Assembly: GCA_003252395.1 (NCBI GenBank)
Contig: QKEL01000009.1
Coordinates: 558,001-622,000 of the forward strand
Origin: Spirochaetales bacterium
Lineage (GTDB): Bacteria; Spirochaetota; Spirochaetia; Treponematales; Treponemataceae
Direction: 5' to 3'
DNA length: 64,000 bases
Shown one piece after another: positions 44,843 through 64,000 of this stretch. Position 1 is the first letter of the stretch. Every line of letters starts with the position of its first letter. Both the position numbers and the translations under genes were made by a program. The notes under the pieces were generated by a model. That model ran no database searches, was not told where the DNA came from, and was given only the letters and a program-made list of their open reading frames with translations.

Positions 44843-44844
44843 TG

Positions 44845-45615: not shown

Positions 45616-45652
45616 TTAAATATCCCCCTTGATCGATACATTCTTTGGATCC

Positions 45653-46522: not shown

Positions 46523-46543
46523 TCAGTTAATCTACATACCGCT

Positions 46544-47626: not shown

Positions 47627-47627
47627 T

Positions 47628-48590: not shown

Positions 48591-48612
48591 AATCGATTTA
48601 TTTTCTCAAAGA

Positions 48613-49527
48613 TCAATACTTTGATCTAGTCCTATCTAAATGTTTCCTGATATACCGTATTGGGTATTCAGATTTTAATTCAATTTCACCTAATATTACT
48701 TCGTAATCCTCAAGTTTAAATGGATTCTTCCGTAAAAGCTCAATTTTTACGAAGGGAAATCCTGTTTGAAGATTATGACGCCAATAATACTGTGAAGGAT
48801 TTATGGTTCCTTTTAATATTATTGTATTGAAAAAAGCTATAAAATTCCTTAAATAACGAATCAAGAATCTTATTAAGGCAATAGGAAGCTTAACGTTTGA
48901 GCCTCTAAACTTAACGTTATTCATTTTCATGCAGAAAAGCCTTACTTTCTCCTTGAGCGAGGGTAGGGTTGCCACCCAAGCGTATTTATAACCCTCACGG
49001 CAAAGATATTGGGTGAGTCCTATTTCATACTTTTGGATAATATCTTTTTTTGATTGCTCTATACACACTTGTGTAAAGAAGGCGACCAAATGACCTGATT
49101 GCAATACTGGTTTATTGAAATAAATAAAGTAACTTTGAAGGTGTGGCGGTCCTTCAAGCGAACGAGTCATGCCCCAGAAATCGCATGATAATTTGTTCAT
49201 CCTTTCGATGATTACCTGTAAATCAAATAGAGGTCCGTAAACGCTATCATTACATATCAGAACTGATTCATAGGTATTAATATTTATCCCCGATTCCAGA
49301 AGGCCAACTTTATAGCTCATGAAGTCATAACCGATGTTTTCTCGGACAATTATCTTGAGACAATTATTAACAATCTTTGATAATTCTTGATTATCAAGTT
49401 GTGAGGTTGTTACGAAAACAATTTCACATCCTAATGAGGATAACTTTTCAAGGTAAACTTGAACATAATCATCAATAAGGTTGTCAACGTCGTAATGTGA
49501 GAACACTGTTAGTATGTGATTAGTCAT
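48613..49527 (-). CDS. Rhamnan-synthesis RgpF-like protein, second copy
   Basis: A 304-residue paralogue of the gene at 45,653: TVFSHYDVDNLIDDYV, ENIGYDFMSYKVG, ICNDSVYGPL and FWGMTRS occur in the same order. The two proteins look about one-third alike by eye. Duplicated RgpF genes are usual in rhamnan-type loci, where each acts on a different linkage. Low GC suggests the cassette came from elsewhere. Confidence 0.82.
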   Translation of the reverse strand: MTNHILTVFSHYDVDNLIDDYVQVYLEKLSSLGCEIVFVTTSQLDNQELSKIVNNCLKIIVRENIGYDFMSYKVGLLESGININTYESVLICNDSVYGPLFDLQVIIERMNKLSCDFWGMTRSLEGPPHLQSYFIYFNKPVLQSGHLVAFFTQVCIEQSKKDIIQKYEIGLTQYLCREGYKYAWVATLPSLKEKVRLFCMKMNNVKFRGSNVKLPIALIRFLIRYLRNFIAFFNTIILKGTINPSQYYWRHNLQTGFPFVKIELLRKNPFKLEDYEVILGEIELKSEYPIRYIRKHLDRTRSKY

Positions 49528-49551
49528 AACATTGTGGGAAAAAGAGCAGTA

Positions 49552-50424
49552 TTAGTGATTGACCATGAAAGTCTTCTTTATTTTCCGTTCGATTTTATTC
49601 ATATATCGCTTTATCAAATATAACCTATAAAATTTAGGAATGCGAAAATAGTATTCTTTTATGAATTCAAGTTCATCTTTCAGGCTGATGTTTTTATTAC
49701 GTTCAGCCCTATACGCATCTAATAATTTTATATATTTCTCCTTTATATTTGAATCGTTATCATGAGTCCAATCTGAAACGTCGAATGAGATAGAATTTTG
49801 ATATTGAATTGTTTCTTCCGAGGGATTTAGAGAATCTTCATACCAAGGTAAATGCTTTGCTAAAAACGGACCTGAGACCCGAAGCGATTCCCACCACTTC
49901 TTTCTATTGGGATAGATACCAGGTCGATATAGTGCGAAAGTCGTATCAATCGGCGCATAGTAAATATCCTTCTCAATTTCATTGGCCCAATATTTCGATT
50001 CCCATTCTATTACTTTTTTCTTTTGATTGAAATGGTCGGGCAAATCATCTATTTTCAATGCAAATCCTACCTTTGTTATCTTTTTATTGCGGGTAAGTAA
50101 TTCCAAAAAATATGCAATAAAATTCTCAGGGAGATCATCAGAGGGCAATATATCACAATCTGAAACGACGTAAAATTGATTTGTTATAATATCGTCAAAT
50201 AAGCCGCATTCCCACACAGCTTTGTGACCTAAATTATTAGACAATCTATGTACTGTGCACGGAACGGTTGAAAGATATTCGAGCAATGGCTGATATGATG
50301 AATTATTGTCAATAATATGTATATTCGTATAATGCTTTTCAATTAAAAAATTTACAAGTCTCTCTAAATAACTAAGTCTATTAAAAGAAATAATAAATAT
50401 TGTTATGTCATGATAGTTTATCAA
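49552..50424 (-). CDS. GT2-like glycosyltransferase, AT-rich
   Basis: A 290-residue protein with IFIISFNRLSYLERLV, then HIIDNNSSY and a DCDILPSDDLPENF segment near 107-120 whose DCD is the likely metal site. The C-terminal half is specific to this family. The gene is very AT-rich. It is followed in transcription by the RgpF copy. A gap of 150 bp with a T/A-rich sequence and no clear gene or terminator separates it from the upstream gene. Confidence 0.75.
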   Translation of the reverse strand: MINYHDITIFIISFNRLSYLERLVNFLIEKHYTNIHIIDNNSSYQPLLEYLSTVPCTVHRLSNNLGHKAVWECGLFDDIITNQFYVVSDCDILPSDDLPENFIAYFLELLTRNKKITKVGFALKIDDLPDHFNQKKKVIEWESKYWANEIEKDIYYAPIDTTFALYRPGIYPNRKKWWESLRVSGPFLAKHLPWYEDSLNPSEETIQYQNSISFDVSDWTHDNDSNIKEKYIKLLDAYRAERNKNISLKDELEFIKEYYFRIPKFYRLYLIKRYMNKIERKIKKTFMVNH

Positions 50425-50574
50425 CAGGAACTCCTTAAAAAGTGGATTGTTTTATCCTTATCTACGTTTTAGAAATATATTGTACTACGATTATTGATTT
50501 TACCAGAATTATTTCTTATTGCTTTCGGTTCAAAGATTTTTGACTTCTCCAAAGAGGACCTATAGGGAATATTA

Positions 50575-51519
50575 TTAATCTTTTCCAGTTCGATTATTTA
50601 CAAAATATTTCACCGACCGTTTAATTACTCGCTTGAATGCATTCATTTTATTAAATATCATTTTGAGAAAGTAATATGGACGATTTAAAAAAAAGAATAG
50701 TAAATATGCATTCTTATTTGGGCTTTGATAGTTATTATTGAGCCATAAACGATTCAATTTTTTTAGTAAATTTGGAGTAATTGAAGGATGTTCAAATTGA
50801 GAGATTGTTTCAATAGTCAACCCATATTTATTTACAATAGATGGGAAGTCTCTTTCAAAAAAATAACGATCAGCGTCATACTCCGATAACAGATTCTCTG
50901 TGAAAAAGTTATCTTGAGCATCATCAATAAATGACTTAATTATTTCTCCTTTGAATATATACCAAGAATATAATGGATATATTCCGAAGAAATCATAACT
51001 ACTTCTTGTAGGTAAAATCTGATTAATTGTTTTGTTTACAAGACTTATACAACTCGAAGAATGACCTGTTATCTCGTGCTGGAAACGTAACCAATTCCCG
51101 ATTAAACCAATATTACTATCTAGATCAAACTTTCTTATTGTGTCATATGGTTTTTCTAGGAAATGATGGCACAACTCTTTTCTGAATTCATGTTGATTGC
51201 TTGTAGATCCTTTTGTATGAATAAACCATACATAATCATATTCAATTTGTTTTGACCGATCTTTGAGTAATTTTAAGGCTGTCTGATAAGCACTTGCATC
51301 ACTATCAATAACATTATCAGTTGGTGTTATGGCCCATTTTAAAGATATATTTTTAGAATATTTCTCCAATAAATAATACCATTCAGGTGTTGACGGATTA
51401 CATCCAACAAATAGATCATATGAGATAAAGTTCTTCGCTATGTGGTCAATTATCTCGGATCCGACTAACAGTTTATCAGGGGATGGGATATAAGATGCTA
51501 AAACAATTGCAATTTTCAA
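50575..51519 (-). CDS. Putative glycosyltransferase of RgpF-type loci
   Basis: I suggest the TTG at 51,519, giving a start KIAIVLASYIPSP like other cluster proteins, with GGTGG 6 bases upstream; the ATG at 51,573 would add 18 residues of odd composition. The 314-residue protein has WFIHTKGSTSNQHEFRKELC (shown in part), which recalls the HTKG segment of RgpF-like proteins, and DNVIDSDASAY. I call it a putative transferase; no firm family. Confidence 0.5.
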   Translation of the reverse strand: MKIAIVLASYIPSPDKLLVGSEIIDHIAKNFISYDLFVGCNPSTPEWYYLLEKYSKNISLKWAITPTDNVIDSDASAYQTALKLLKDRSKQIEYDYVWFIHTKGSTSNQHEFRKELCHHFLEKPYDTIRKFDLDSNIGLIGNWLRFQHEITGHSSSCISLVNKTINQILPTRSSYDFFGIYPLYSWYIFKGEIIKSFIDDAQDNFFTENLLSEYDADRYFFERDFPSIVNKYGLTIETISQFEHPSITPNLLKKLNRLWLNNNYQSPNKNAYLLFFFLNRPYYFLKMIFNKMNAFKRVIKRSVKYFVNNRTGKD

Positions 51520-51654
51520 ACAAAACCACCAAAATATAAATCGCTTATCGTTCATTGAAAGGATACTTTCCACTCAATTATATATTTGATTTATAAGTTC
51601 TATTATGTGAGTAGAATGTAAGTCATTTTCAATAATATTTAACGCAATTTCTAA

Positions 51655-52725
51655 TTATGATCTGAACCCACCGGACTTTAAATGTAATTCCTTTTGGGCA
51701 AGATTCATGTCGTTATCGACCATCATTTTAACCAATTCTGAAAGCTGTACCCGTGGTTCCCAACCCAACTTCATTTTGGCCTTGCTCGGGTCTCCAATAA
51801 GAAGTTCAACTTCAGCAGGGCGAAAATAACGAGGATCAATCTCGACAACAGTTTTACCGGATTTGATATCAATGCCTTTCTCGTTGATACCGCTACCTTC
51901 CCATTTTAGTGATATACCTGATTCATGAAAGGCCATTGATATAAAATCCCTAACCGTAGTCGTAATGCCCGTTGCCATCACGTAATCGTCTGGGTTATCC
52001 TGTTGAAGCATCAACCACATAAGCTCTACATAGTCACCTGCAAATCCCCAATCTCGTTTTGCGTCGATATTTCCCATGTAAAGCTTGTCTTGTAGACCAA
52101 GTTTGATCCGTGCTGCTGCCCTTGTCACTTTTCTAGTCACGAATGTTTCTCCGCGTCGGGGACTTTCATGATTAAAAAGGATTCCATTTGACGCATGTAA
52201 ACCGTATGACTCGCGATAGTTTACGACTATCCAATACGCGTACAATTTTGCTACGGCATAAGGGGATCTGGGATAAAAAGGCGTGGTTTCTTTTTGAGGA
52301 ATTTCCTGTACTTTACCAAAAAGCTCACTCGTTGATGCCTGATAAAAGCGAACTTTTTGTTCCATGCCTAAAATTCTGATTGCCTCCAGGAGGCGCAGCG
52401 TTCCTATTCCGTCGGCATCAGCTGTATATTCCGGGACCTCGAATGAAACTTGAACATGACTCTGTGCACCCAAATTATATATCTCGTCAGGCTTAACTTC
52501 CTGAAGGATTCGCACCAGATTTGAAGTGTCTGTAAGGTCTCCATAGTGTAAAAAGAAATGATTCTTCGTGGAGTGAGGATCCTGAAACAGATGGTCTATT
52601 CGTTCGGTATTGAAGCTTGATGATCTTCTCTTTATTCCATGGACTTCATATCCTTTTTGTAAGAGAAACTCAGAAAGATACGCTCCGTCCTGCCCTGTCA
52701 CACCCGTAATTAATGCTTTCTTCAT
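51655..52725 (-). CDS. gmd: GDP-mannose 4,6-dehydratase
   Basis: ATG 52,725 (GGAGA upstream) begins the conserved [17 protein letters not shown]. The 356-residue enzyme makes GDP-4-keto-6-deoxy-D-mannose. [39 protein letters not shown], and the Y-x3-K pair in [10 protein letters not shown], plus [17 protein letters not shown], are all present, so it is a full-length Gmd. The product is the shared precursor of fucose, colitose, perosamine and rhamnose-type GDP-sugars; the next enzymes in the locus indicate colitose. Confidence 0.96.
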
Positions 52726-52754
52726 GGTAATATCTCCGTCTATCATCCAATATT

Positions 52755-53780
52755 TCATTTGGTGAAAAAAAGCTGAGCGACTTTACCTATTGAATCGGCA
52801 AAGTATTCACAGCTAAACTTTTCTGCGGTCTCGGATCTCAGAAACGAATCAATGTTTTTTCTGTATTCCAGAAACTCGTACTCGGTTATTTCATTTAATC
52901 TATCAAAAAGTTGTTCATGAGTTCTAAAAGAGTTTCGGTCTATGTATGTATTCGCTGGTATATAATCCGAGATATTTGGTGGGCCCAGGTAAACCGGAAC
53001 AACACCGGAAATAAAACAGTCAAATATCTTTTCTGTTATGTACCCTGGAATATTTACTGCATTCTCATAACAGATTGTAAACCGATAACGGGATAATGTT
53101 TGGTACTTACTCTCAACCGAACCGTGATATGTTCCATTCGGGAAAAAAACACGCGGGGATAAGGCATTAATCCTTCTACCCAAAGACCTGCGTAGTCGCG
53201 TAGAACGCGGTTCTATCCCCATATCCCAGCCCTTCCCGTAGAGATCAAGATCATCGGGATGATATTTCTCGAACCATTTAATAGTTTTTATTCTTTCCGA
53301 GTAGGACTCATTCGGATGACGGGATGACTTATTGGAAGCAATTAAACATACCAATTTTTTCTGGGAGAAGGGTAACGGATTTTCATGGACTTTTAAATGT
53401 GGCTGTGCAAAAAACAATTTAAAATATTTTTTATTGTCTACGATGGTATCATTCCACGTGAATATATACCTGAATTTATCGTGATTTTTTATGTCCCAGT
53501 TATAGGGTTTTACTACTGCGGTTTCAAAAAGAAGCGCTATCGATGTATCGGGATTATGCCAAGGAGGGAACAATTCCGGTATATCGTTATAAATAGTAAA
53601 TAAGGCGTTTTTTGGAACGGATTTATCCTGAGTTGTTAACTCAATCCCATATTGGTTCAGTCTTAATCTAAGGGTGCGGTAAGCACGAAGACAATCATCG
53701 CGATTAAGCTCTGTATCGTCAGGATTGAAAATCCTGTTATCTTGATATGGCGGATCCACAAAAAGAGTTGCATACTTCAT
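52755..53780 (-). CDS. GT10-family fucosyl/colitosyl-type transferase
   Basis: A 341-residue protein with the hallmarks of GT10: CLIASNKSS in the centre, then [36 protein letters not shown] (shown in part; YENA, TEKI, GPPNI) which binds the GDP-sugar. GT10 enzymes use GDP-fucose; colitose is 3-deoxyfucose, so a GDP-colitose donor from the neighbouring ColD/ColC is likely. It starts overlapping the upstream gene by 4 bp and its end overlaps the longest possible form of Gmd. Confidence 0.88.
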
Positions 53781-54865
53781 TCCAGAGCCCCTAATATGGC
53801 TTCAAATCTGGCTTTATACAGATTGCGAGACGCGACTTGGTATCCCGAAAGTCTGATCTTTTCCCGTTCGATATCATTACATAGATAATACCTAATAAGT
53901 TTCTCAAGCTCATCAATCGTCGAAAACAGAACAATTTCCCTACCGTTTACGAAATAGTCTTCGATTTCAAGTGCAAACTGGCTGATTTGAAAACCAGTAG
54001 CTGCAGGTATTTCAAAGTTTCGAGCCTTAATCTGTTCAACATTCTTGCATGGAAAACTTGAGTGCAACTTGTCTGGACGTAAAGACTCTATAAATCTCCT
54101 CAACGCGGTTCTATAACCCTTTATACGATAGATCTTCAAGATGCGTAATAGTAATTCTTTTCTTCTTTTCCTTTCCCGTTCCTCGAGTCTCTTCCTATAA
54201 TCAAAGTCTCTTGGTATGGAATTTGAGAGATTCAATGATATTTTCGTGCTCTGAAAAATTTCGTTCATCCGTTCGGTGCTCACACGACCATTTTTCCATC
54301 CCGAACCGAAGCATTCTACGAATATTCCACGACGGTTAAGTTCATCGATATACCACTCTCTTACATCGTTTCGGCCACCGACAAATGATACCTCATAACG
54401 ATACGGCTTCTGTTCATATTTTAAGAGGTTCTCTGCAGCCCATTGCGTGAGTATTATTCTGGTATTTCCCAATTCCCGATATTTTGGAACTGAATACTTA
54501 TCGACTGTAATCACGGTATGAAGGTGCGGTGCTACATTTCTTGAGAAACCATCGAATCTCCATTGATCGTCGCAAAAAAAATTTACCGTTTTACTGATTT
54601 CGTTTAACCGATCTAGCGTTTCAATCCTGATTTCATTGTTCATTAAAACGAAGAAAACGTAATCAGGCTTTTCAAAAGTACAGTAAGCAATCAAATCCTC
54701 TTGCAATTGGTATTGATCCTCTGGGAATCCGTGTTCTTCAAGCCAAAAAGGAATTGATTCGGGAGACAACTCCTTTATCTGTTTATAAAAGACCGTCATC
54801 TCGGTTGATGGTCCACGATCCTTAATTCCATAATCATATTTCAGAAAAGCCGTGATAATTTTCAT
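53777..54865 (-). CDS. CgeB-like GT1 family glycosyltransferase
   Basis: A 362-residue protein. The C-terminal half shows SLNLSNS, EQIKARNFEIPAATGFQIS and a following FSTIDELEKLIRYYL, as in the CgeB/Spore maturation-type transferases and glycosyltransferase domain 1_2. An N-terminal EEHGFPEDQ region is unlike others. It is located between GT10 and ColD, so it probably acts on the same repeat unit. Confidence 0.75.
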   Translation of the reverse strand: MKIITAFLKYDYGIKDRGPSTEMTVFYKQIKELSPESIPFWLEEHGFPEDQYQLQEDLIAYCTFEKPDYVFFVLMNNEIRIETLDRLNEISKTVNFFCDDQWRFDGFSRNVAPHLHTVITVDKYSVPKYRELGNTRIILTQWAAENLLKYEQKPYRYEVSFVGGRNDVREWYIDELNRRGIFVECFGSGWKNGRVSTERMNEIFQSTKISLNLSNSIPRDFDYRKRLEERERKRRKELLLRILKIYRIKGYRTALRRFIESLRPDKLHSSFPCKNVEQIKARNFEIPAATGFQISQFALEIEDYFVNGREIVLFSTIDELEKLIRYYLCNDIEREKIRLSGYQVASRNLYKARFEAILGALE

Positions 54866-54868
54866 TTT

Positions 54869-56038
54869 TTAGAAACTTTTCCCCAGTACATCACGCAGAT
54901 AGCTTAGCTCATGAGTCAAATCGTATTGATGGTTTCCCACGAAGAGCCCGTATTTATCGATATGTTCGGCATTTTTTAGGGAGCCAGAGATTTCGTGCGG
55001 TATAAATGCCATCACCGGATTTTTGGAGAAATTACCGGCAACAATGGGCCGACACTCAATGTCAGCGGTAATGAGGGCAGAAGCCAGTTCTTTTCTCGTT
55101 ATGGATGCGGCTTCTTTGATGATAATGGAAAAACCAAACCAGCTACTTGAGCCAATCTCAGCTTGAATATCGAAAAAGGGATTCCCTTTAAAGTACTCCT
55201 GAAAAACAATCGCGTTTTTTCTGCGAAAGTCGATGAAACCCGAAAGTTTATCAAGCTGTTCAAGTCCGATCGCAGCTTCTATTTCCAAGGGTCTTACGTT
55301 ATACCCGGGAAGGACGAATTTAAATGACTCCTCGAAAGGATCGTCGCTCTTTACACCGCTTACCATGTTTTTCTTCGGGAGATTCCTCGTCCAACCATGG
55401 GCACGCAGGCAAAGTAAAATATGATAGAGTTCAATGTCATCGGTTACAATAACCCCACCTTCCATCGTTGACATATGATGGCTGAAGAATGTGGAGTATG
55501 TTCCCATAAGCCCAAAAGTTCCTGCTTGTTTTCCCTTATATACAGCTCCTAGGGACTCACAGTTGTCTTCTATTACAATAATATTTCGCTCTTTAGTAAT
55601 TTTTGCTATTTGATCGAAATCATTGGGGTTACCCAACAAGTTAACCGCCATGATAAGCTTCGTCTTGTTTGTAACCGCACGCTCAAGCGCCAAAAGATTA
55701 TAATTAAGCGTATGTCTGTCGATATCCACGAATTTCAATTTTAGCCCATATTGATAAAGCGGATAATAAGTTGTCGGCCAGGAAACTGCAGGAACTATAA
55801 CTTCATCGCCAGGGGATAGTTGATTTTGTTTCCGATAGAATAATGCCGCAACCATGAGCAAGTTTGCCGATGATCCTGAATTGACCATCACGGCGTGTTT
55901 AGAACCAACGAACGAGGCAAATTTTTCTTCGAACCGTACAACTTTCTCGCCCATTGTACACATTCCAGACTCAATTACCTCATGAGCCGCTTTTTTTTCT
56001 TTATCGTCCCATGTGGTTGTTGCAAGTGGATATTTCAT
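54869..56038 (-). CDS. colD: GDP-4-keto-6-deoxy-D-mannose 3-dehydratase (ColD)
   Basis: A 389-residue PLP enzyme of the DegT family. The Schiff-base lysine is replaced by His: the motif is FFSHHMSTMEGG with His187/188, exactly as in E. coli ColD (SHH, His188), and unlike sugar aminotransferases which have Lys. Other matching segments: VNSGSSANLLM, AVSWPTTYYPLYQYG, LLGNPNDFD, EDNCESLGA, LRAHGWTRNLPKKN, FVLPGYNVRPLE. It removes the 3-OH to give GDP-4-keto-3,6-dideoxy-D-mannose, using glutamate to keep PLP as PMP. It follows the ColC/Fcl gene with 3 bp between them. Confidence 0.92.
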   Translation of the reverse strand: MKYPLATTTWDDKEKKAAHEVIESGMCTMGEKVVRFEEKFASFVGSKHAVMVNSGSSANLLMVAALFYRKQNQLSPGDEVIVPAVSWPTTYYPLYQYGLKLKFVDIDRHTLNYNLLALERAVTNKTKLIMAVNLLGNPNDFDQIAKITKERNIIVIEDNCESLGAVYKGKQAGTFGLMGTYSTFFSHHMSTMEGGVIVTDDIELYHILLCLRAHGWTRNLPKKNMVSGVKSDDPFEESFKFVLPGYNVRPLEIEAAIGLEQLDKLSGFIDFRRKNAIVFQEYFKGNPFFDIQAEIGSSSWFGFSIIIKEAASITRKELASALITADIECRPIVAGNFSKNPVMAFIPHEISGSLKNAEHIDKYGLFVGNHQYDLTHELSYLRDVLGKSF

Positions 56039-56041
56039 GAC

Positions 56042-56962
56042 TTACCCCTTTATCGTCGTTAAATAGTATTTGTAAGTTTCCTCAATACCCTGTAACAGGG
56101 AGACATTTGACTTCCAGCCAAATGAATTAAGGAGTGTGGTGTCAACAAGTTTTTGTTTCATGCCTTCCGGCTTAGTTGTATCATGAACGAATTCGCCCTT
56201 ATATCCGATCACATCAGCGACTGTTCTATAGTAGTCGTTAATCGAAAAATCCCTGCCTATTCCCGCATTTAATACTTCGGGCATTGACTTAAAATTTCTG
56301 ATACAATGAGAAACACAATCAGAAAGATCGCCTACGTACATAAATTCGCGCTTAACTTTTCCTGTTCCCCAAACCGTAACGATCGATCTATCCATTTTAG
56401 CTGCATGTACCTTGTTGATCGCTGCTGGTATCATATGGGCATGAGCAAGGTCAAATTTATCGTACTTACCGTATAAATTGCAGGGCATTAAGGTTTTATA
56501 TGAATAGTCTTTGTTTTCCTTCATGATATAGGAACATAACCGCTGAGCGGTAATTTTCGCGAGAGCGTAACCCTCGTTAGTTGGCTCCAGCTCACCTTGT
56601 AAAATGTACTCTTCTTTTAATGGGTTATCTGCGTTTCTCGGATACATACAAGAACTACCGAAATTTAACAGTTTTCCGATTCCTGCCTCGAACGCTGCCA
56701 TTATTACATTTCGACCCATATCGATATTATCAATGAGAAATCGAACGGGTTCTCGTATATTTGCTTGAATCCCACCGACCTTTCCTGCGCAATGTATTAC
56801 CATCTCGGGATTTTTTGATGTCATGTATCTGAAAACGTCATCATAAGACAACAAATTCAGTTCAGCATGAGAAGGGGCAAGAACTTCATGGCCTTCGTCT
56901 CTGAGCCTTTCACTTATGTTTCGACCTACCAGGCCCGAGCCGCCAGTAATCATGATTATCAT
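56042..56962 (-). CDS. GDP-colitose synthase / GDP-fucose synthase-like epimerase-reductase
   Basis: A 306-residue SDR enzyme: GGSGLVGRN at 7-15, AGKVGGIQANI, NFGSSCMYP (Ser-Ser-Cys) and Y-x3-K in YALAKITAQ, PCNLYGKYDKFD, and REFMYVGDLSD. This is the GDP-L-fucose synthase/ColC fold, where Cys and Ser drive C5 epimerisation and reduction at C4. With ColD beside it, the product is most likely GDP-L-colitose; with Gmd alone it could be GDP-L-fucose, so a dual role is possible. Confidence 0.88.
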   Translation of the reverse strand: MIIMITGGSGLVGRNISERLRDEGHEVLAPSHAELNLLSYDDVFRYMTSKNPEMVIHCAGKVGGIQANIREPVRFLIDNIDMGRNVIMAAFEAGIGKLLNFGSSCMYPRNADNPLKEEYILQGELEPTNEGYALAKITAQRLCSYIMKENKDYSYKTLMPCNLYGKYDKFDLAHAHMIPAAINKVHAAKMDRSIVTVWGTGKVKREFMYVGDLSDCVSHCIRNFKSMPEVLNAGIGRDFSINDYYRTVADVIGYKGEFVHDTTKPEGMKQKLVDTTLLNSFGWKSNVSLLQGIEETYKYYLTTIKG

Positions 56963-57957
56963 ATTTTAATTCCTATGTGTTTGAGTATATATCTACAACA
57001 TCTATACACTTTTTTTTTACCGTGCTCGAAAACAATCAATAATCGCGGAAAATATTTATAGCAATTAAACCAGATTTGGAAAACAAAATCAGTGGCCCGA
57101 TTCAACACAACGTTTTTTTCCAATCTCAGTAAATCGGCCTTGCCCGGCTTAAACCTCAATATTTCATGCTTGATTTGATTATTAGCATAACTAATCCATT
57201 GCTTCCCAAGATGGGATGTATAATGCTTATCTAGAATACTATCTAAAACCGGCTTCTTGAGCATTGGAATCATCCATAATGAATTTCGACTATCTTGTGC
57301 ATCATGTAACCTATAAAAAAACAATTTTTCTTGTAAATATTTCATATTACGTTTTTTATTTAGCTCAAACCAAAAAAAGGTATCTGCAGATTTACCCACA
57401 TCCGTACGGTATCTAATTTGATCTTCGTTCACCGATTTCACCCGAAGCATTACAGTAGGACAACATATGTAATTTTTACCGTGAATGTAGCCTTTTAAGT
57501 ATTCACCTTTCCGAATTAATTTATTCTGATTTCCAATAATCCTGTCATAAGCCCTTCCAATAACGGGATTGCCGTTTACATCAATAAAGTCAGCGTTCAC
57601 GCATACAAGATCTACATCAAGATTAACGGTTAATTCCTCAATTTCTTTTTTAACCATATCTGGATGCATTATGTCGTCATCGTGAGTTAATAAAAGGAAA
57701 TCAGATTTACAATTTTCAATTGCTATATTGAAATTTCGCAATGCTCCGATGTTTATACTATTCTTGATATACTTAAATCTCGTATCATTCAGATACTTCT
57801 GTACGACATAATCGGTTTCATCAGTAGAGCCATTATCGTATACCTTAACTACAAAATCTCTGTAAGTTTGATTTTGAATAGATTCAAGCATAAGATCAAG
57901 GAATCTAGACCTGTTATAGGTCATTACCGCGATTGTTACCTTGTATTTACACATCAT
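56959..57957 (-). CDS. GT2 glycosyltransferase
   Basis: A 332-residue protein. VTIAVMTYNRSRFLD and VYDNGSTDET, then LTHDDDIMHPD (metal site), and FYRLHDAQDSR; it belongs to GT2. The start ATG overlaps the upstream stop (ATGATG), and its end overlaps the ColC-type gene. Lower GC than the neighbours to the left. Sugar donor unknown; the epimerase product GDP-colitose is possible. Confidence 0.82.
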   Translation of the reverse strand: MMCKYKVTIAVMTYNRSRFLDLMLESIQNQTYRDFVVKVYDNGSTDETDYVVQKYLNDTRFKYIKNSINIGALRNFNIAIENCKSDFLLLTHDDDIMHPDMVKKEIEELTVNLDVDLVCVNADFIDVNGNPVIGRAYDRIIGNQNKLIRKGEYLKGYIHGKNYICCPTVMLRVKSVNEDQIRYRTDVGKSADTFFWFELNKKRNMKYLQEKLFFYRLHDAQDSRNSLWMIPMLKKPVLDSILDKHYTSHLGKQWISYANNQIKHEILRFKPGKADLLRLEKNVVLNRATDFVFQIWFNCYKYFPRLLIVFEHGKKKVYRCCRYILKHIGIKI

Positions 57958-58985
57958 TTAATAGCTTTATTGAACGGAGGATTTTGATTATTCTTTTTTA
58001 GGTGTTCTCTGATTCTCTTAAATAATCTTTTATATCTCCTATATGTTTTACCTATACTAACAAATGTTTTATTATCTAAAAAGACATTAAAAAAGAATAA
58101 AATCATTCCTTTATAAGTAAAACAATATAGTTTTGAAATATGTAATAATTCGACAAGGCTTACACGTCGTCCGTACTGTTTAGCATTGTGCATTAGTAGT
58201 GAAATTTCAGATGACTTATTAGACAAATGATTTGTTACAATTTCTGGATATCGTTTTTGATAATAAAATCTAAATATTTTAGCAAGTTCTAGGGAATTAT
58301 CAAGTAGTAATTTAGATTCCCACCAGCCATGGGACTCCCTGTATAATACAAAAGCTTTTTTTGCTGTCTGTACAGTAATTGTTTTTGGATTAGTAGTTAA
58401 CATATTATGCAATATTTCTAGGTGCGCCCAGTTTTTAAAATATAATTTTGTATTAATTTTATCAGTTTGAAATATATTAGTTGATAAAGCTGTACCAATA
58501 CCTATTCCATTTTTTAAATAAACTTCATTAGGCTCAAAGTAGATATTATCTTCTGTTAGTTTATAACTTTCCGAATCGCTAAAGGAATTATTTTTTTCGT
58601 TATAAATTAAAAAATTTAGAAAAATATTATGCGGCGAATATTGGGTAATTATTTCAAGAATTGAGGATAAGCTTCCGTCTAACAAATAATCTTGACATCC
58701 AAGCAGCCATACATATTCTGTTGTTACAGTATTTACGAGAAAAATGATATTACCATCATAACCAAGGTTTTGTGCTTGTCTGTGGTAATTAATCTTCCCT
58801 TCAAAACGTTTTACATAACTCAGGCAAATAGATTGAGTAGTGTCTGTTGAGGAATTATCAGAGATAAGTATAACAACCTTATTTGATTGGAATTCACTTT
58901 GCTTGATAATACTCTCAAGCGTATTCCCAATATAATCACCGCCATTGTATACCGGAATCGCTATTGTTAAAATCGAATCAATCAA
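57954..58985 (-). CDS. GT2 glycosyltransferase, very AT-rich
   Basis: A 343-residue protein with ILTIAIPVYNGGDYI at 4-18, ISDNSSTDTT and LLGCQDYLLDGS (metal site as GCQD). It is one of the most AT-rich genes of the window. It overlaps the SDR gene by 8 bp and is part of the same operon as the split transketolase genes, so it may transfer the sugar they make. Confidence 0.82.
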   Translation of the reverse strand: MIDSILTIAIPVYNGGDYIGNTLESIIKQSEFQSNKVVILISDNSSTDTTQSICLSYVKRFEGKINYHRQAQNLGYDGNIIFLVNTVTTEYVWLLGCQDYLLDGSLSSILEIITQYSPHNIFLNFLIYNEKNNSFSDSESYKLTEDNIYFEPNEVYLKNGIGIGTALSTNIFQTDKINTKLYFKNWAHLEILHNMLTTNPKTITVQTAKKAFVLYRESHGWWESKLLLDNSLELAKIFRFYYQKRYPEIVTNHLSNKSSEISLLMHNAKQYGRRVSLVELLHISKLYCFTYKGMILFFFNVFLDNKTFVSIGKTYRRYKRLFKRIREHLKKNNQNPPFNKAIK

Positions 58986-59919
58986 GTTTAAAACCCTTAT
59001 TACCTAAAATAAACGCAGTCTCTGAATCAAGGCAATTCCTAGACGTATTCTTAACAATTTTATCAATATCTGATGATTCATTCTGGGAATAGTATATTTT
59101 CTTTAACCCTGTAACAGATACCGTATCAGAATTTGTAATTTCAAATTTTAACCCATACTTATGTTCGAATAATGAAATAATCTCAAATTTTGTTATTGGA
59201 TGTTTACTGTAAATATCGATCGCATTGTTAATTCTAACAGTTTGTTCAAGATAAAACATTATTATTTCAAATAGGTCATCCGGATGTATATAGTCACGAA
59301 CGATATCAATTTCATTCGTCTTGAAGACTTCATCTTTCTTTATACAGTTAATTATTTCCGTGAGCAGAAAATTTGTATGAAGATCAATATATCTACTAAA
59401 AAAACTGAAAATACGAAAATCTATAATTGATAGTCCTTGAAGCGAACGGTGCTTTGCCTCTGAATTCAACTTAGCGACCCGGTAAAAATCACCAGCAGTA
59501 AGTTCATTTACTTTATATTCTGCGATTGTTTCTCTATTTACAGGCTCTGAAAAAGAAGTCCCGTAAACTGCTCCACTTGAAAAATTAATATATTTTGTTT
59601 CCGGGTGTTCCATTATATACTTCAAAGCCATATTGTCATAAATTTCAGTCGCTTGAAAAACTTGAATACCTGCAGTTTTTTGCTTTAAAGGATCTGCAAT
59701 ACCTACGCAATTAAATATTGCATCATAAAAGCCAGCTGTAAATTTCGAATAATCTGATATTTCGTAACCTGGGATAGTAATTTTGTTCTCATTGAAAAAA
59801 TTGCTTACTGATATAGGATTTCGTGCAAACAAAGAAAGACTGATCTCATTTTGAGAAATAAAACGAATTAATAAGTTCTTGGCTATATGACTATTCGCTC
59901 CTAGTATTGCAATATTCAT
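58978..59919 (-). CDS. NAD-dependent epimerase/dehydratase-type reductase (SDR)
   Basis: A 313-residue extended SDR: nucleotide-binding GANSHIAKN near residues 8-16, Ser-Ser-Gly in FSSGAVYG, and Y-x3-K in YRVAKLN near 167-171. The N-terminal loop has an A-N instead of the usual T-G signature, which is a variation. It sits directly after a split transketolase and before a GT2 gene, with 4-bp overlap to the transketolase C gene. The best guess is reduction or epimerisation of the 4-keto or side-chain keto sugar made by its neighbours. Confidence 0.75.
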   Translation of the reverse strand: MNIAILGANSHIAKNLLIRFISQNEISLSLFARNPISVSNFFNENKITIPGYEISDYSKFTAGFYDAIFNCVGIADPLKQKTAGIQVFQATEIYDNMALKYIMEHPETKYINFSSGAVYGTSFSEPVNRETIAEYKVNELTAGDFYRVAKLNSEAKHRSLQGLSIIDFRIFSFFSRYIDLHTNFLLTEIINCIKKDEVFKTNEIDIVRDYIHPDDLFEIIMFYLEQTVRINNAIDIYSKHPITKFEIISLFEHKYGLKFEITNSDTVSVTGLKKIYYSQNESSDIDKIVKNTSRNCLDSETAFILGNKGFKLD

Positions 59920-60821
59920 ATCAGTTCATCCAATTTGGGTTTCTTTGACAACCCAAATTTATTACGTAAGTATTCCTGTGAACCAATATAATGACTATAG
60001 GTATCTTGTATTGCAATATTTTTAACGGGAATACCATATCCTTTATTTCCAGCAAATGCAGCTATAGCTTCACCTATACCACCAATAACGTTATGTTCTT
60101 CAACAGTTATGATTGGTATCCTTAATTCCATTATATGATTAAGGAAATCGACATCTAATGGTTTAACAGTGTGTAAACTTGCAAAAAGAGGATCATGCCC
60201 CTCGATTTCCCATTCAGAAACCCATTTGTTTACGGTTTCCAACATATTACCCATCGATAAAATCGCAAACTCTTTTCCATCACGAAGAATTGAGGCTTTC
60301 CCAAATTCAATAATACTTTGTTGTTTATGGATTAATGGTTCGTTATTCTTTCCTAATCGAATATACATAGGTCCCTCTTGAATAAAGCTGTACTTGATTA
60401 AATTCCTTGCTTCTAAAGGGTCTCCTGGACAACACACAGTCATATTAGGGAGTGCACGCATAATTGCAACGTCTTCTATTGCATGATGTGTAGCCCCTGC
60501 CGGTCCATATGAAAACCCTCCCCCGACACCCACCAATTTAACATTTGTATTCATGTATGCAACATCAACACGAATTTGTTCAAAGCAACGCATAGTCACA
60601 AAAGGCACTATAGAATACAAATAGGGTTTGTATCCGGATAAAGATAACCCCGCTGCGATCGAAACAGCATTCTGTTCAGCGATTCCAACATTTAAGAATC
60701 TATTAGGAAAAGAATCTATAAATTTTTCAAAAACTGAAAAACCGAGATCAGGAGTTAACAAGAAAATAGAGTCATCTACTCGTGCTTGTTCAATCAACGT
60801 TTCAATAAAAGTCGTTCTCAT
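59916..60821 (-). CDS. Transketolase-like subunit, C-terminal (pyrimidine-binding) part
   Basis: A 301-residue protein: catalytic Glu49 in NVGIAEQN (activates the thiamine pyrophosphate aminopyrimidine), HHAIEDVAIMR, ITVEEHNVIGG and a full C-terminal domain. It corresponds to the C-terminal half of transketolase or the DXS/E1-beta type. Together with the N-terminal subunit at 60,818 it forms one TPP active site. Position next to RfbH and an SDR implies action on a nucleotide-sugar 4-ketone rather than in the pentose phosphate pathway. It overlaps both neighbours by 4 bp. Confidence 0.9.
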   Translation of the reverse strand: MRTTFIETLIEQARVDDSIFLLTPDLGFSVFEKFIDSFPNRFLNVGIAEQNAVSIAAGLSLSGYKPYLYSIVPFVTMRCFEQIRVDVAYMNTNVKLVGVGGGFSYGPAGATHHAIEDVAIMRALPNMTVCCPGDPLEARNLIKYSFIQEGPMYIRLGKNNEPLIHKQQSIIEFGKASILRDGKEFAILSMGNMLETVNKWVSEWEIEGHDPLFASLHTVKPLDVDFLNHIMELRIPIITVEEHNVIGGIGEAIAAFAGNKGYGIPVKNIAIQDTYSHYIGSQEYLRNKFGLSKKPKLDELI

Positions 60822-61600
60822 ATAGACTCTCCCAACTCATCAAGCGCCATATTAAGCTGTGTTGGATCAGGAGACTTATAATGCCATATAAATTCACCTT
60901 CCATGAAGGATACGCCTTTCCCTTTTATCGTATTAGCTACAATCGCGGCTGGACCAGAACAATTAATTAATGCATCCTTTATAGCTTTTTCGTCATGACC
61001 ATCAATTTCAACGACGTTCAATCCAAAGGTTTTCAACCTTTCTGCTAAATTATTTTGATTTATTATATCCCCTCCCATTCCTTGCAGTCTATTATTGTCG
61101 ATGATCAGAGTATAATTATGAACCTTTAAAGTACCAGCGAGCATTATGGATTCCCATACAGAACCTTCATTACATTCACCATCCCCAACGAGAACGTAAA
61201 CATGTCCCCCCAGACCTTTCTTTAGCTTACCAATGGCAATACCTAACCCAAGACCGGGTCCATGTCCCAGAGAACCTGCAGAGACCTCAATTCCCTTGGC
61301 AACAGTCATGTCTAGGTGTCCAGGTAGAATGCCTCCATCAATGTAATAAGAATTCAACAATTCTTTTTCGATTATACCCGCTTGAGCTAATACAGAATAT
61401 AACGCGGCGCTTGCATGTCCTTTACTTAGAATAAAAACATCTCGGTCTTGTGCATGGTCTTTAATCTTTTGAATATTCATAAGATCGAAATACAAGACTT
61501 TTAAGATGTCCACAATTGAAAGAGCGCTTCCAATATGTGAAGATTTTGAGTATGACATCATTTTGCAGATATCTGCTCTGATTCTATTCGCGATTTTCAT
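60818..61600 (-). CDS. Transketolase-like subunit, N-terminal (TPP-diphosphate-binding) part
   Basis: A 260-residue protein with His22 (SSHIG), SKGHASAALY, HGPGLGLGIAIG, and the TPP motif GDGECNEG at 139-146 ending with IDNN at 167-170. That is the complete N-terminal half of a transketolase. It is encoded separately from the C-terminal half, as in many sugar-branching or archaeal-type systems. It overlaps RfbH by 4 bp. A C2 donor (fructose-6-phosphate, xylulose-5-phosphate or hydroxypyruvate) is expected. Confidence 0.9.
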   Translation of the reverse strand: MKIANRIRADICKMMSYSKSSHIGSALSIVDILKVLYFDLMNIQKIKDHAQDRDVFILSKGHASAALYSVLAQAGIIEKELLNSYYIDGGILPGHLDMTVAKGIEVSAGSLGHGPGLGLGIAIGKLKKGLGGHVYVLVGDGECNEGSVWESIMLAGTLKVHNYTLIIDNNRLQGMGGDIINQNNLAERLKTFGLNVVEIDGHDEKAIKDALINCSGPAAIVANTIKGKGVSFMEGEFIWHYKSPDPTQLNMALDELGESI

Positions 61601-62934
61601 CTTAAGATATAATCCTTAATTACCCGCACCATGCGGTCAATCATATCTTCCGTCATACCGGGATACACGCCGATCCAGAAAGAATCTCGCATTATTCTGT
61701 CGGTATTCGTTAGGTTCCCGACAATTCGATATCCTTCACCCGAATTGCGCATTTCGTCGAAACAAGGGTGGCGGGTAAGGTTTCCGGCAAATAATGCCCT
61801 GGTCTGAATATTCGAATTTTCGATATGTCTAACGAGAGCATTCCTGTCGACGCCTTCAGCGCACGTCATAAGAAAACCGAACCAACTCGGATTTGAGTTT
61901 TCTACTGGTACCGGTAGGATAATCTTATGGGCGACTGGCTTTAAGCCAGAAAGTAACCGATTATAATTCATTCTGCGCCTTTCTACAAAAGACGGGAATT
62001 TTTCAAGCTGCGCAACACCGATTGCGGCTTGCATATCGGTTGCCTTAAGATTATACCCAAAGTGGCTATATACGTACTTGTGATCGTAACCCGGGGGGAG
62101 TTCGCCATATTGCTTGTCGAAGCGATGACCGCACACGTTGTCCCTCCCCGAGGGGCATACGCAATCCCGACCCCAGTCACGCATGGAGCGGATTATTTTG
62201 TTTAATAAAGGATTATCAGTGTAGACCGCACCGCCTTCGCCCATGGTCATGTGGTGCGGAGGATAAAAACTGGACGTTCCGATATCCCCAATCGCCCCGG
62301 TTTTCTTTTCTATTCCGTTAAGCGTATAGGTAGATCCAAGCGCATCGCAATTATCCTCTATCAACCAGAGCCGGTGTTTATCGCAAAAAGCCTTTACCGT
62401 GGCGAGATCAAAGGGGTTTCCGAGCGTGTGCGCGATCATTACGGCTTTGGTCTTGGGTGAAAATGCAAGCTCCAACTGGGTAACGTCAATATTGTATTGA
62501 GGTATAGTAACGTCTACAAATACCGGGATAGCGCCGAACTGGATAATAGGCGCAACAGTCGTCGGGAAACCGCAAGCAACCGTAATTACCTCGTCTCCTC
62601 TACGTATAGCTCGTTCTTTTAAAAGAGGCGAGGTGAGCGCCATAAAGGCAAGAAGATTGGCAGATGATCCGGAATTGACGAGCGAACAAAACCTGACGCT
62701 AAGGTATTCCGCCAGTTTAGCCTCAAATTCATCGGTGTAGCGTCCGGAGGTTAGCCAAAATTCAAGGGAACTATCAACAAGGTTGATCATTTCCTTTTCA
62801 TCAAAAACGCGAGCGGCATACGATATTCTATCGCCATCGACGTATTCTTTTTTCCTCATGAATGCCTTATGGTATTCTGCTACGCTCTTTAATATATTCT
62901 TAGCCGCTTCGTCTTGTGTCATCGTTTCAAACAT
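61597..62934 (-). CDS. rfbH: CDP-4-keto-6-deoxyglucose 3-dehydrase (RfbH/E1)
   Basis: A 445-residue PMP/[2Fe-2S] enzyme. The Schiff-base lysine is replaced by His: FYPPHHMTMGEGG with His227/228. The cluster ligands are Cys196 (DNCDALG), then Cys258-x-Cys260-x7-Cys268, the C-x-C-x7-C part fitting exactly, with Cys196 to Cys258 61 residues apart (57 in the Yersinia enzyme), so one small insertion. It dehydrates CDP-4-keto-6-deoxyglucose; a reductase (E3) is needed and is not seen, so it should lie outside the window or be supplied from elsewhere. Confidence 0.95.
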   Translation of the reverse strand: MFETMTQDEAAKNILKSVAEYHKAFMRKKEYVDGDRISYAARVFDEKEMINLVDSSLEFWLTSGRYTDEFEAKLAEYLSVRFCSLVNSGSSANLLAFMALTSPLLKERAIRRGDEVITVACGFPTTVAPIIQFGAIPVFVDVTIPQYNIDVTQLELAFSPKTKAVMIAHTLGNPFDLATVKAFCDKHRLWLIEDNCDALGSTYTLNGIEKKTGAIGDIGTSSFYPPHHMTMGEGGAVYTDNPLLNKIIRSMRDWGRDCVCPSGRDNVCGHRFDKQYGELPPGYDHKYVYSHFGYNLKATDMQAAIGVAQLEKFPSFVERRRMNYNRLLSGLKPVAHKIILPVPVENSNPSWFGFLMTCAEGVDRNALVRHIENSNIQTRALFAGNLTRHPCFDEMRNSGEGYRIVGNLTNTDRIMRDSFWIGVYPGMTEDMIDRMVRVIKDYILR

Positions 62935-62946
62935 CTATTTTCTCCG

Positions 62947-63999
62947 TTAAAGTGAAAAGTATTCGCGAATCTGCCCTTCCATACACGATCGCCTGTCCGG
63001 ATCCGTGGGGCATTTAGCGAATTCAACTGTTTTTTGTACGGCAGTTCTTATATCCCAAACCGGTTTCCAACCAAGCTTCGTTTTTGCCTGTGAGCAATCG
63101 AGCTTGAGAAAATTGGCCTCATGCGGTCCGCCGTCCCCCTGCGCTGACCAGCGGGCGCCATTACCCCAAATACCGCAAAACAGTTCTACGAGATCCCCGG
63201 TCGTAACGCAACTATCGTCATCGGGTCCGAAGTTGTATGACCCGGAGAGACCCCGTTCTTCATATTGCTTTCGTGCCAAAAGTAAATAACCCGAAAGGCA
63301 TTCCAATACATGTTGATAGGGGCGTGTTGAGTGAGGGTTTCTGATCTGTATAGTCGAGCCTTTCTCGGCAGCTCGAATGCAATCGGGAATAATCCTATCG
63401 GTAGAGTAATCTCCGCCACCGATCACATTTCCCGACCTTGCGGTGGAAATAGCCGTTGCTTCTGGCGATGAGAAGAATGAATTGCGATAGCTGAAGGTGA
63501 CCAACTCACTACAGGACTTGCTGTTCGAATAGGGATCAAAACCGCACAGGTTCTCGTTTTCACGATACCCCCAGGCCCATTCCTTATTTTCATATACCTT
63601 GTCAGTCGTGACATTTACGAACGAACGGACTGCCGGGAAATTCCTAAGGGACTCGAGAATGTTAACCGTTCCCATCACGTTCGTCTCGTATGTGTTTACC
63701 GGTTCCCGATATGATAGCCGAACGAGTGGTTGGGCCGCTAAATGGAAGACAATATCAGGTTTGGCATTCTCCATGGCTTGGGAAAGGGTGGGGAGGTCCC
63801 TCACATCGCCAAACACGCACTCTGATTCTTTATGATTACCGGAGATGGTTAACAGCGAGGGAGTCTCGGAAGGGGGTAGCGCATATCCTGTTACTTTCGC
63901 GCCTGCTATAGAGAGAATCTTAGTAAGCCAGCTCCCCTTAAACCCGGTATTTCCGGTAATAAAAACGCTTTTACCGCGATAAAAGGAAAGATCAATCAT
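62947..63999 (-). CDS. rfbG: CDP-glucose 4,6-dehydratase (RfbG)
   Basis: A 350-residue SDR enzyme that begins at the right edge of the window (ATG at 63,999). MIDLSFYRGKSVFITGN-type N terminus, then GNTGFKGSWL, HLAAQPLVRLSY, VTTDKVYENKEW and the Y-x3-K pair in YSNSKSCSE. It oxidises and dehydrates CDP-glucose to CDP-4-keto-6-deoxyglucose, the substrate of RfbH. The gene for CDP-glucose synthesis (rfbF) is expected upstream, beyond the window. Confidence 0.95.
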   Translation of the reverse strand: MIDLSFYRGKSVFITGNTGFKGSWLTKILSIAGAKVTGYALPPSETPSLLTISGNHKESECVFGDVRDLPTLSQAMENAKPDIVFHLAAQPLVRLSYREPVNTYETNVMGTVNILESLRNFPAVRSFVNVTTDKVYENKEWAWGYRENENLCGFDPYSNSKSCSELVTFSYRNSFFSSPEATAISTARSGNVIGGGDYSTDRIIPDCIRAAEKGSTIQIRNPHSTRPYQHVLECLSGYLLLARKQYEERGLSGSYNFGPDDDSCVTTGDLVELFCGIWGNGARWSAQGDGGPHEANFLKLDCSQAKTKLGWKPVWDIRTAVQKTVEFAKCPTDPDRRSCMEGQIREYFSL

Positions 64000-64000
64000 T

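Follow-up and report, generated by a model that had tools for sequence, protein, structure and literature searches.

YerE-like enzymes have been described for the branched sugars of surface glycans, as summarized in a 2025 review (PMC12247030). The same review treats split-gene transketolases (TKs) for ketone acceptors, of which it gives 13 putative sequences (Krug et al. 2024), all from Streptomycetes and none assayed, and it describes the proposal that a split-gene TK places a hydroxyacetyl group on a keto sugar in miharamycin and amipurimycin biosynthesis (PMC12247030). By its account, no ketone-accepting TK has been characterized in vitro and none has a structure (PMC12247030). Here, a split TK gene pair is described from a Spirochaetales bacterium, in a 64,000-nucleotide stretch of contig QKEL01000009.1 (positions 558,001 to 622,000; hereafter, the window). 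The two genes, TKN and TKC, lie between rfbH of a CDP-dideoxysugar gene set and a gene for a short-chain dehydrogenase/reductase (SDR). Based on gene neighborhoods, phylogeny and active-site residues, the pair probably attaches a two-carbon (C2) ketol unit to C4 of CDP-4-keto-3,6-dideoxyglucose, and the SDR would then reduce the branch to give a 4-C-(1,2-dihydroxyethyl) dideoxyhexose.

The transketolase genes and their immediate neighbors

The cluster is read from the minus strand in the order rfbF, rfbG, rfbH, TKN, TKC, SDR and glycosyltransferases. The rfbF gene, for glucose-1-phosphate cytidylyltransferase (TIGR02623 403 bits, cut-off 300), is almost entirely beyond the window; its 3' end occupies 63992-64000, the complete gene lies at C1:621992-622771 of the contig (L004:3992-4771), and it overlaps rfbG by 8 bp. 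The next gene, rfbG (62947-63999), encodes CDP-glucose 4,6-dehydratase (TIGR02622 443 bits, cut-off 278), and rfbH (61597-62934) encodes an E1-type CDP-4-keto-6-deoxyglucose 3-dehydrase (NF011936 709 bits, cut-off 423). These are followed by TKN (60818-61600; PF00456, E 3e-30), the N-terminal half of the TK that binds thiamine diphosphate (ThDP), by TKC (59916-60821; PF02779 and PF02780), the C-terminal half with the pyrimidine-binding and C domains, and by the SDR gene (58978-59919; PF01370), whose product is a proposed branch-ketone reductase and is YerF-like by synteny only. The five genes from rfbG to the SDR gene had been named in an earlier reading of the window made from the letters and open frames (the sequence-only reading), and all five are open frames on the minus strand at these positions. 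The RfbH/TKN, TKN/TKC and TKC/SDR joints are 4-bp ATGA overlaps, as that reading had it, and the gap between rfbG and rfbH measures 12 bp by open reading frame (ORF) coordinates instead of the 13 bp first given. The three overlaps suggest that translation of RfbH, TKN, TKC and the SDR is coupled.

RfbH carries His in place of the aminotransferase Lys (SSFYPPHHMTMGEGG) and a C-x-C-x7-C motif at residues 258-268. The full C-x57-C-x-C-x7-C pattern is absent from the window RfbH, in which the nearest upstream Cys residue is Cys196, 61 residues before the C-x-C-x7-C motif. In the Yersinia E1 enzyme, the fourth cluster Cys stands at a spacing of 57, and Cys196 is the likely fourth cluster ligand of RfbH. 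The ThDP motifs of the two halves are intact: TKN keeps GDG...NN and TKC keeps the catalytic Glu. In the SDR, Y145 and K149 of the YxxxK motif are invariant in five relatives.

Genomic neighborhoods and phylogeny of related pairs

To determine whether the link to dideoxysugar genes is an artefact of starting from RfbH, 84,980 species genomes were scanned with TKC alone and the neighbors were read afterwards. This independent search addresses the artefact explanation, and the locus counts of 25, eight and three given below exclude the loci found through RfbH (L004, L040, L063, L067, L074, L075 and L085). The scan returned 25 loci, 20 of which have a 4-keto nucleotide-sugar dehydratase within 10 kb on either strand (17 with RfbG, three with Gmd and a ColD-like dehydrase). 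The others comprise L119, with RfbH and a YerE-like gene, two short contigs (L096, L108) and two distant TKs (L118, L120). The scan uses short peptide patterns and is non-exhaustive, so that these are 25 relatives and not the 25 nearest; relatives of 53-60% identity (G437, G483, G415, G627) were found later, outside these loci. Linked loci carry the labels Paenibacillus, Bacteroidetes, Gastranaerophilales/Melainabacteria, Elusimicrobia, Arcobacter/Sulfurospirillum and an alphaproteobacterial metagenome-assembled genome (MAG), with the MAG labels unverified.

Two narrower surveys gave a similar picture. Among 104 genomes of the Paenibacillus psychroresistens family, six of the eight TKC matches of at least 45% identity lie 1.7-4.1 kb from RfbG, and the remaining two are on an 8-kb contig and in a genome without RfbG. 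In the same family, none of the 62 other split-TK matches listed (29-41%) is within 10 kb of RfbG (Fisher p 2e-7, an optimistic value in which close relatives from one clade are treated as independent). This comparison covers the 70 matches listed with open frames below 500 aa, full-length TK- and DXS-like ones being left out. In 199 genomes of the Arcobacter caeni order, all three matches of 51-54% identity are within 3.5 kb of RfbG (matches to E 1e-40), with RfbG places taken solely from genomes that have a TK match. The surveys overlap, as L096, L097, L098 and L100 appear to be G486, G392, G393 and G414, and L112 and L114 appear to be G400 and G398.

The pair is also found on plasmids and in fused forms. 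TKC matches occur in 433 plasmid records, and the neighborhoods of six were examined. A Paenibacillus cellulosilyticus plasmid (L122) has the order rfbF-rfbG-methyltransferase-[SDR-TKN fusion]-TKC, in which the SDR-TKN fusion (L122:6097-8004, 635 aa) is placed between the methyltransferase gene and TKC. A Methylovirgula plasmid shows rfbF-rfbG-oxidoreductase-rfbH-TKN-TKC, and no rfb genes lie within 8 kb of the TKC on an Azospirillum plasmid, a 45% relative. On three control plasmids with more distant split TKs (Rhizobium, Enterococcus, Variovorax), the neighbors are transport, dihydroxyacetone-kinase or amidase genes. In L116 (8070-10004), a C-methyltransferase is fused to TKN (644 aa). The Klebsiella pneumoniae label of this record is doubtful, since its TK is just 66% identical to E. 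coli TktA; no relative of its TK genes at the DNA level was found in E. coli genomes. In addition, 25 phage-collection records match TKC, each at less than 60% identity.

The phylogeny of split TKs agrees with the neighborhoods. A maximum-likelihood tree was built from 61 split pairs and two full TKs. Every one of the 33 pairs with the context label "linked" falls in one clade of 42 (support 99/99), and the window pair belongs to an inner clade of 27 (100/96), which is made up of 25 linked pairs plus two pairs on short contigs. The linked label requires 7 changes on the tree relative to 21 in shuffles, and none of 500 shuffles is as low, a contrast that near relatives inflate. An earlier, quicker tree of 55 rows also places every linked pair (28/28) in one clade, of 34. 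L098 and L120 (broken or truncated) were left out of the first tree and, additionally, L063 (long branch) out of the second, in which the context labels of nine added rows were assigned by hand from neighborhood readings. L154 (TKN in two frames) and L152 (taken as a duplicate of L100, whose contig is equally long at 4,453 bases) are in neither. Of the loci found through RfbH, all but L085 entered a tree.

A further line of evidence comes from the SDR. RfbH was found at E 1e-100 in 52 of the 392 genomes of the window's phylum, at 57 places in total, many of them cut by contig ends. A YerE-like gene lies within 8 kb at 26 of these, a TK half or pair at seven and both at two (identity thresholds: YerE 30%, TKN 33%, TKC 24%); L085 ends within the cluster and shows TKN only. 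TK genes near rfbH, which the sequence-only reading had suggested looking for elsewhere, recur in the phylum. Among the 52 RfbH genomes, the window SDR has four full-length relatives (L044, L073, L082, L090; about 40-49% identical), each with RfbH and a YerE-like gene of the acetohydroxyacid synthase (AHAS) type to its 5' side. In L044, L073 and L090, RfbH, YerE and SDR are adjacent with no gene between, and in L082 other ORFs intervene. The L044 YerE-like protein has three TPP-enzyme domains of its superfamily, and its best PDB match is 5ahk, which we take to be PpYerE. The TK pair of the window therefore occupies the position held by YerE in loci of the L044, L073 and L090 type. No YerE-like match is present in the window; at E 1e-10, the genome has three YerE/AHAS-like places, all outside it. 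For the window SDR itself, no PDB relative was found at E 0.01 and no plasmid relative at E 1e-10, and an AlphaFold model from the single sequence was unusable (pLDDT 33).

This kinship of the SDR bears on a simpler reading of the cluster, in which C4 reduction by the SDR would turn the RfbH product directly into a plain 3,6-dideoxyhexose, leaving the TK pair as a passenger or as decayed genes. RfbFGH and one reductase are enough for sugars of the paratose or abequose type. However, the TK halves are intact and joined to their neighbors by 4-bp overlaps, and the relatives of the SDR in RfbH genomes accompany YerE-like genes, which makes a plain dideoxyhexose very unlikely.

The choice of nucleotide is a separate question, as the window holds a second, GDP-linked 3-deoxysugar gene set on the minus strand, about 3-8 kb downstream of the TK pair (51655-56962). 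It consists of gmd (51655-52758; GDP-mannose 4,6-dehydratase, TIGR01472 618 bits, cut-off 415), a DegT-family 3-dehydrase gene (54869-56038) with His for Lys FFSHHMSTMEGG and without a curated model above cut-off among those shown, and an Fcl-like SDR gene (56042-56962; best NCBIfam match GDP-L-fucose synthase, 314 bits, under the cut-off of 500). We take the last two to be ColD-like and ColC-like, respectively. The TK pair could thus branch GDP-4-keto-3,6-dideoxymannose made by Gmd and the ColD-like enzyme, with RfbFGH and the SDR making a plain dideoxyhexose. Consistent with this possibility, L111, L113 and L117 have Gmd-ColC-TKN-TKC and a ColD-like gene with no RfbG within 10 kb, and L155, from the Arcobacter caeni order, has both the CDP and the GDP set with a TK pair (ColD 63% and ColC 56% identical to those of the window). 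In contrast, the window pair overlaps RfbH on one side and the SDR on the other by 4 bp each, the L155 pair sits between RfbG and an SDR adjoining RfbH, and among the 25 scan loci, those with RfbG (17) exceed the three with the GDP set alone. Branching of the GDP sugar in the window is therefore considered unlikely. In the tree, the GDP-linked pairs L111, L113 and L117 nest among CDP-linked ones, and it thus seems that the nucleotide of the sugar switched in these lineages while the TK stayed. The element common to the CDP and GDP clusters is a 4-keto-6-deoxy sugar, which argues for its C4 ketone as the acceptor, and clusters that contain a C-methyltransferase gene and no RfbH fit this assignment too.

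Active site and fold of the split transketolase

The active-site residues of 28 core members were compared, using the residue numbers of E. coli TktA. Asp155, Glu160, Asn185, Asp381, Glu411, His100, His261 and His473 are kept in all 28, and His26 and His66 in all 27 with data. Conversely, Ser385 is replaced by an aromatic residue (19 Phe, 9 Tyr), Phe434 by Ile and His461 by Gly in every core member, and Asp469 is kept in none (24 Ala, two Leu, two Gln). All 35 clade members have Gly461, as against none of 20 other split TKs. In the window pair, TKN keeps the equivalents of His26, His66, His100 and His261 along with the ThDP motif, and TKC keeps those of Glu411 and His473. Ser385, His461 and Asp469 of a canonical sugar-phosphate TK are replaced in the window TKC by Phe, Gly and Ala, respectively, and Arg520 by Lys. 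We take Ser385, His461 and Arg520 to form the phosphate site, Asp469 to contact the acceptor hydroxyl, and His100 and His473 to serve the ketol unit. Together with the gene neighborhoods, the SDR-TKN fusion and the kinship of the SDR, the substitutions make C2 addition to a 4-keto nucleotide sugar the candidate reaction. A comparable change has been made in the laboratory, where evolution of E. coli TK toward aromatic aldehyde acceptors led to the variant S385Y/D469T/R520Q (PMC5073344). This variant (5hht) shares with the window protein an aromatic residue at 385 and a replaced Asp469, and the window protein differs from E. coli TK at the same three sites; unlike the evolved enzyme with its aldehyde acceptors, however, it carries Phe385, Gly461, Ala469 and Lys520 naturally.

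Both halves find their closest PDB sequences in the split-chain TK of Carboxydothermus hydrogenoformans, with TKN nearest to 6yak (N-terminal component) and TKC nearest to 6yaj. The AlphaFold model of TKC (pLDDT 89.9) has 6yaj as its best fold match (Z 36.2, rmsd 2.0, 292 aligned residues). DXS chains tie with it in the fold list (Z 35.6), in which 5hht also appears, so that fold alone cannot tell a TK from DXS; for TKN, sequence models can. The Carboxydothermus enzyme has the identical two-chain architecture but reads VGEDGASH where, in the phmmer alignment, the window protein reads YGPAGATH. From this two-chain structure and the adjacency of the genes in the pairs examined, we infer that TKN and TKC form one heteromeric enzyme.

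A search of the whole genome for Transket_pyr found three places: the window pair, a frame on contig C6 that is a full-length TK (TIGR00232 766 bits, cut-off 682), and C1:240456, which is DXS (TIGR00204 686 bits, cut-off 466). The sequence-only reading had allowed for a housekeeping role if the pair were the only TK of the genome; the separate full TK and DXS rule out this role. Similarly, in nine of ten other genomes with a cluster TK pair, a search with E. coli TktA finds a further TK or TK half, and in the tenth, a 1.5-Mb MAG, the cluster copy alone was found. Other kinds of split TK are common, and one with a housekeeping or catabolic task might lie in a polysaccharide cluster by chance. 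Given the other TKs of the genome, the lack of any tie to 4-keto-sugar genes in the other split TKs compared, and the replacement of Ser385, His461 and Asp469, such a coincidence is extremely improbable.

The proposed pathway and its relation to known systems

In the proposed pathway, RfbF, RfbG and RfbH would make CDP-4-keto-3,6-dideoxyglucose, for which these families are the established route. TKN and TKC, acting as one heteromeric TK, would load ThDP with a ketol (hydroxyacetyl) two-carbon unit taken from a ketose or from hydroxypyruvate. Because it lacks a ketol to donate, a 4-keto-3,6-dideoxy sugar should by its chemistry serve only as the acceptor. Once the hydroxyacetyl unit was added to the CDP sugar at its C4 ketone, that carbon would become a tertiary alcohol bearing a 4-C-hydroxyacetyl branch. 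The SDR would then reduce the ketone of this branch, yielding CDP-3,6-dideoxy-4-C-(1,2-dihydroxyethyl)hexose, equivalent to yersiniose plus one hydroxyl, and the neighboring glycosyltransferases would place the branched sugar in a surface glycan. We infer the reaction, its donor, position, stereochemistry and product. The reaction had been suggested in the sequence-only reading and is well supported by context, namely by neighborhoods in several phyla, the SDR-TKN fusion, the kinship of the SDR and the active site; its donor, acceptor nucleotide, stereochemistry and final sugar are putative.

Several observations weigh against this reading. The linked trait is not clean on the tree, where it needs 7 changes, and clade members L124, L129, L148, L156 and L157, on contigs of at least 9.9 kb, have no RfbG, RfbH or close ColD nearby. 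Two of these, L156 and L157, have clade TK pairs with ORFs that, named by eye, look like radical-SAM and SDR genes, and perhaps carry out related chemistry on another sugar. In the Arcobacter order, two of 17 matches at 33-40% (G563, G535) are also within 4 kb of RfbG; both are in RfbG-RfbH clusters that also contain a YerE-like gene, and they blur the identity-based split, not the link to RfbG. A fifth, partial relative of the SDR (G037) lies on a different contig than the RfbH of that genome. The SDR beside the pair belongs to different subfamilies in different clusters; the five SDRs scanned beside TK pairs all match PF01370. A search for the NAD-binding and YxxxK motifs turned up an SDR-like ORF on the same strand, no more than 4 kb away, at 28 of 38 loci; it cannot separate reductases from dehydratases and missed ten loci, one of which has an SDR by BLAST. 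In the active site, Asp469 is kept by just five of the 20 other split TKs, so that its loss alone is not diagnostic, and at position 100 four early-branching members of the clade carry Leu in place of His. The stretches of the C-methyltransferase clusters L101, L106, L107, L122 and L151 yielded no RfbH; the acceptor is therefore not always a 3-deoxy sugar, and 3-deoxygenation of the RfbH type is ruled out as a strict requirement. Finally, YerE-like genes occur near TK pairs in L040, L063, L108, L110, L114 and L119, and also in L153 and L154. Because the two share several loci, TK and YerE are not always alternatives, and strict replacement of YerE by a TK is ruled out as a general rule.

Some of these clusters have unusual gene contents. 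L101, L106, L107 and L151 show the order rfbF-rfbG-C-methyltransferase-SDR-TKN-TKC, with no RfbH found in the stretch, and perhaps make a doubly branched sugar (3-C-methyl, 4-C-two-carbon). In the Gastranaerophilales MAGs L108 and L110, the TK pair is flanked by two to three YerE/AHAS-like ORFs on the opposite strand. Near RfbH, L063:1663-7429 combines a divergent TK pair (TKC 25-29%, TKN 35% identity) with a YerE-like gene and two HMGL-like ORFs; this is possibly a pathway to a long-branched sugar.

The shared loci raise the alternative that the TK pair makes or extends a precursor, such as a keto or hydroxyketo compound of greater length that a YerE-like enzyme would use as donor, or a later side chain. 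Clusters L040, L110, L114, L153 and L154 contain both TK pairs and YerE-like genes, and L063 adds to the combination its two HMGL-like ORFs, which we read as putative aldolases. In the window, however, no YerE-like gene is there to be fed, the three such places of the genome being elsewhere, and acceptor- and phosphate-site residues are replaced across the 28 core members, which would be odd for an enzyme of small sugar phosphates. A precursor role is thus rather unlikely, and direct branching of the CDP sugar is preferred.

The remaining features of the window concern its setting. A family 2 glycosyltransferase gene (57954-58985, minus strand; PF00535) overlaps the end of the SDR gene. The G+C content is 0.47-0.60 before 44 kb of the window versus 0.30-0.46 at 44-62 kb, where the glycan cluster lies. 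Such a drop is common in horizontally acquired surface-glycan clusters and suggests that the cluster at 44000-62000 was acquired in this way. In the one other genome of the genus among those listed, RfbH was not found (E 1e-100).

Beyond the window, the recurrence of similar pairs in surface-sugar clusters of many unrelated bacteria suggests an undescribed route to branched surface sugars. On balance, we lean slightly toward a widespread, undescribed class of ketone-accepting split TKs, present in at least six phyla, that would branch nucleotide-activated 4-keto-6-deoxy sugars of surface glycans, CDP- or GDP-linked and whether or not 3-deoxygenated or C-methylated, replacing the unrelated-type YerE in some clusters. 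If true, there would be a second branching chemistry, in which a TK passes an oxygenated C2 unit to a ketone, new octose-type sugars would be predicted in many bacteria, and a natural, widespread set of ketone-accepting TKs would be at hand.

The sequence-only reading knew of no described case, and in the openly licensed literature, judged by titles and the starts of abstracts, no description was found of such a TK pair in a CDP- or GDP-dideoxysugar cluster. For split TKs in general, this claim has to be narrowed, because they were already proposed for miharamycin and amipurimycin, in Streptomyces only and with no activity shown according to the review (PMC12247030). Those enzymes resemble the window pair in being split-gene TKs proposed for hydroxyacetyl transfer to a keto sugar (PMC12247030); they differ, by the review's description, in coming from Streptomycetes, whereas the kind seen here occurs in glycan-type clusters of at least six phyla (by labels) and likely uses a nucleotide-linked 4-keto acceptor. 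A different type of branching enzyme is pyruvate-dehydrogenase-like, whereas both halves of the window pair score best with transketolase models. This type is represented by AviB1 and AviB2, which form two chains. Such alpha-keto acid dehydrogenase 2 branching enzymes have in common with the pair that they are ThDP enzymes that branch sugars (PMC12247030). The system proposed here is best filed as branched-sugar biosynthesis by another class of ThDP enzyme than YerE. In the yersiniose A pathway, RfbFGH (Ddh) is followed by YerE and YerF, an order that the proposed succession of TK and SDR would parallel. In that pathway, and with ErwE, MMAR_2332 and MygE, a ThDP enzyme branches CDP-4-keto-3,6-dideoxyglucose (PMC12247030), as would the window pair. 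The likeness extends to synteny, as the ThDP gene has the same position in L044, L073 and L090, with the SDR after it. In contrast to these systems, the ThDP enzyme of the window is a two-gene TK and not a decarboxylase of the acetolactate-synthase type, and its C2 unit would come from a ketose or hydroxypyruvate, bringing one more hydroxyl to the branch.

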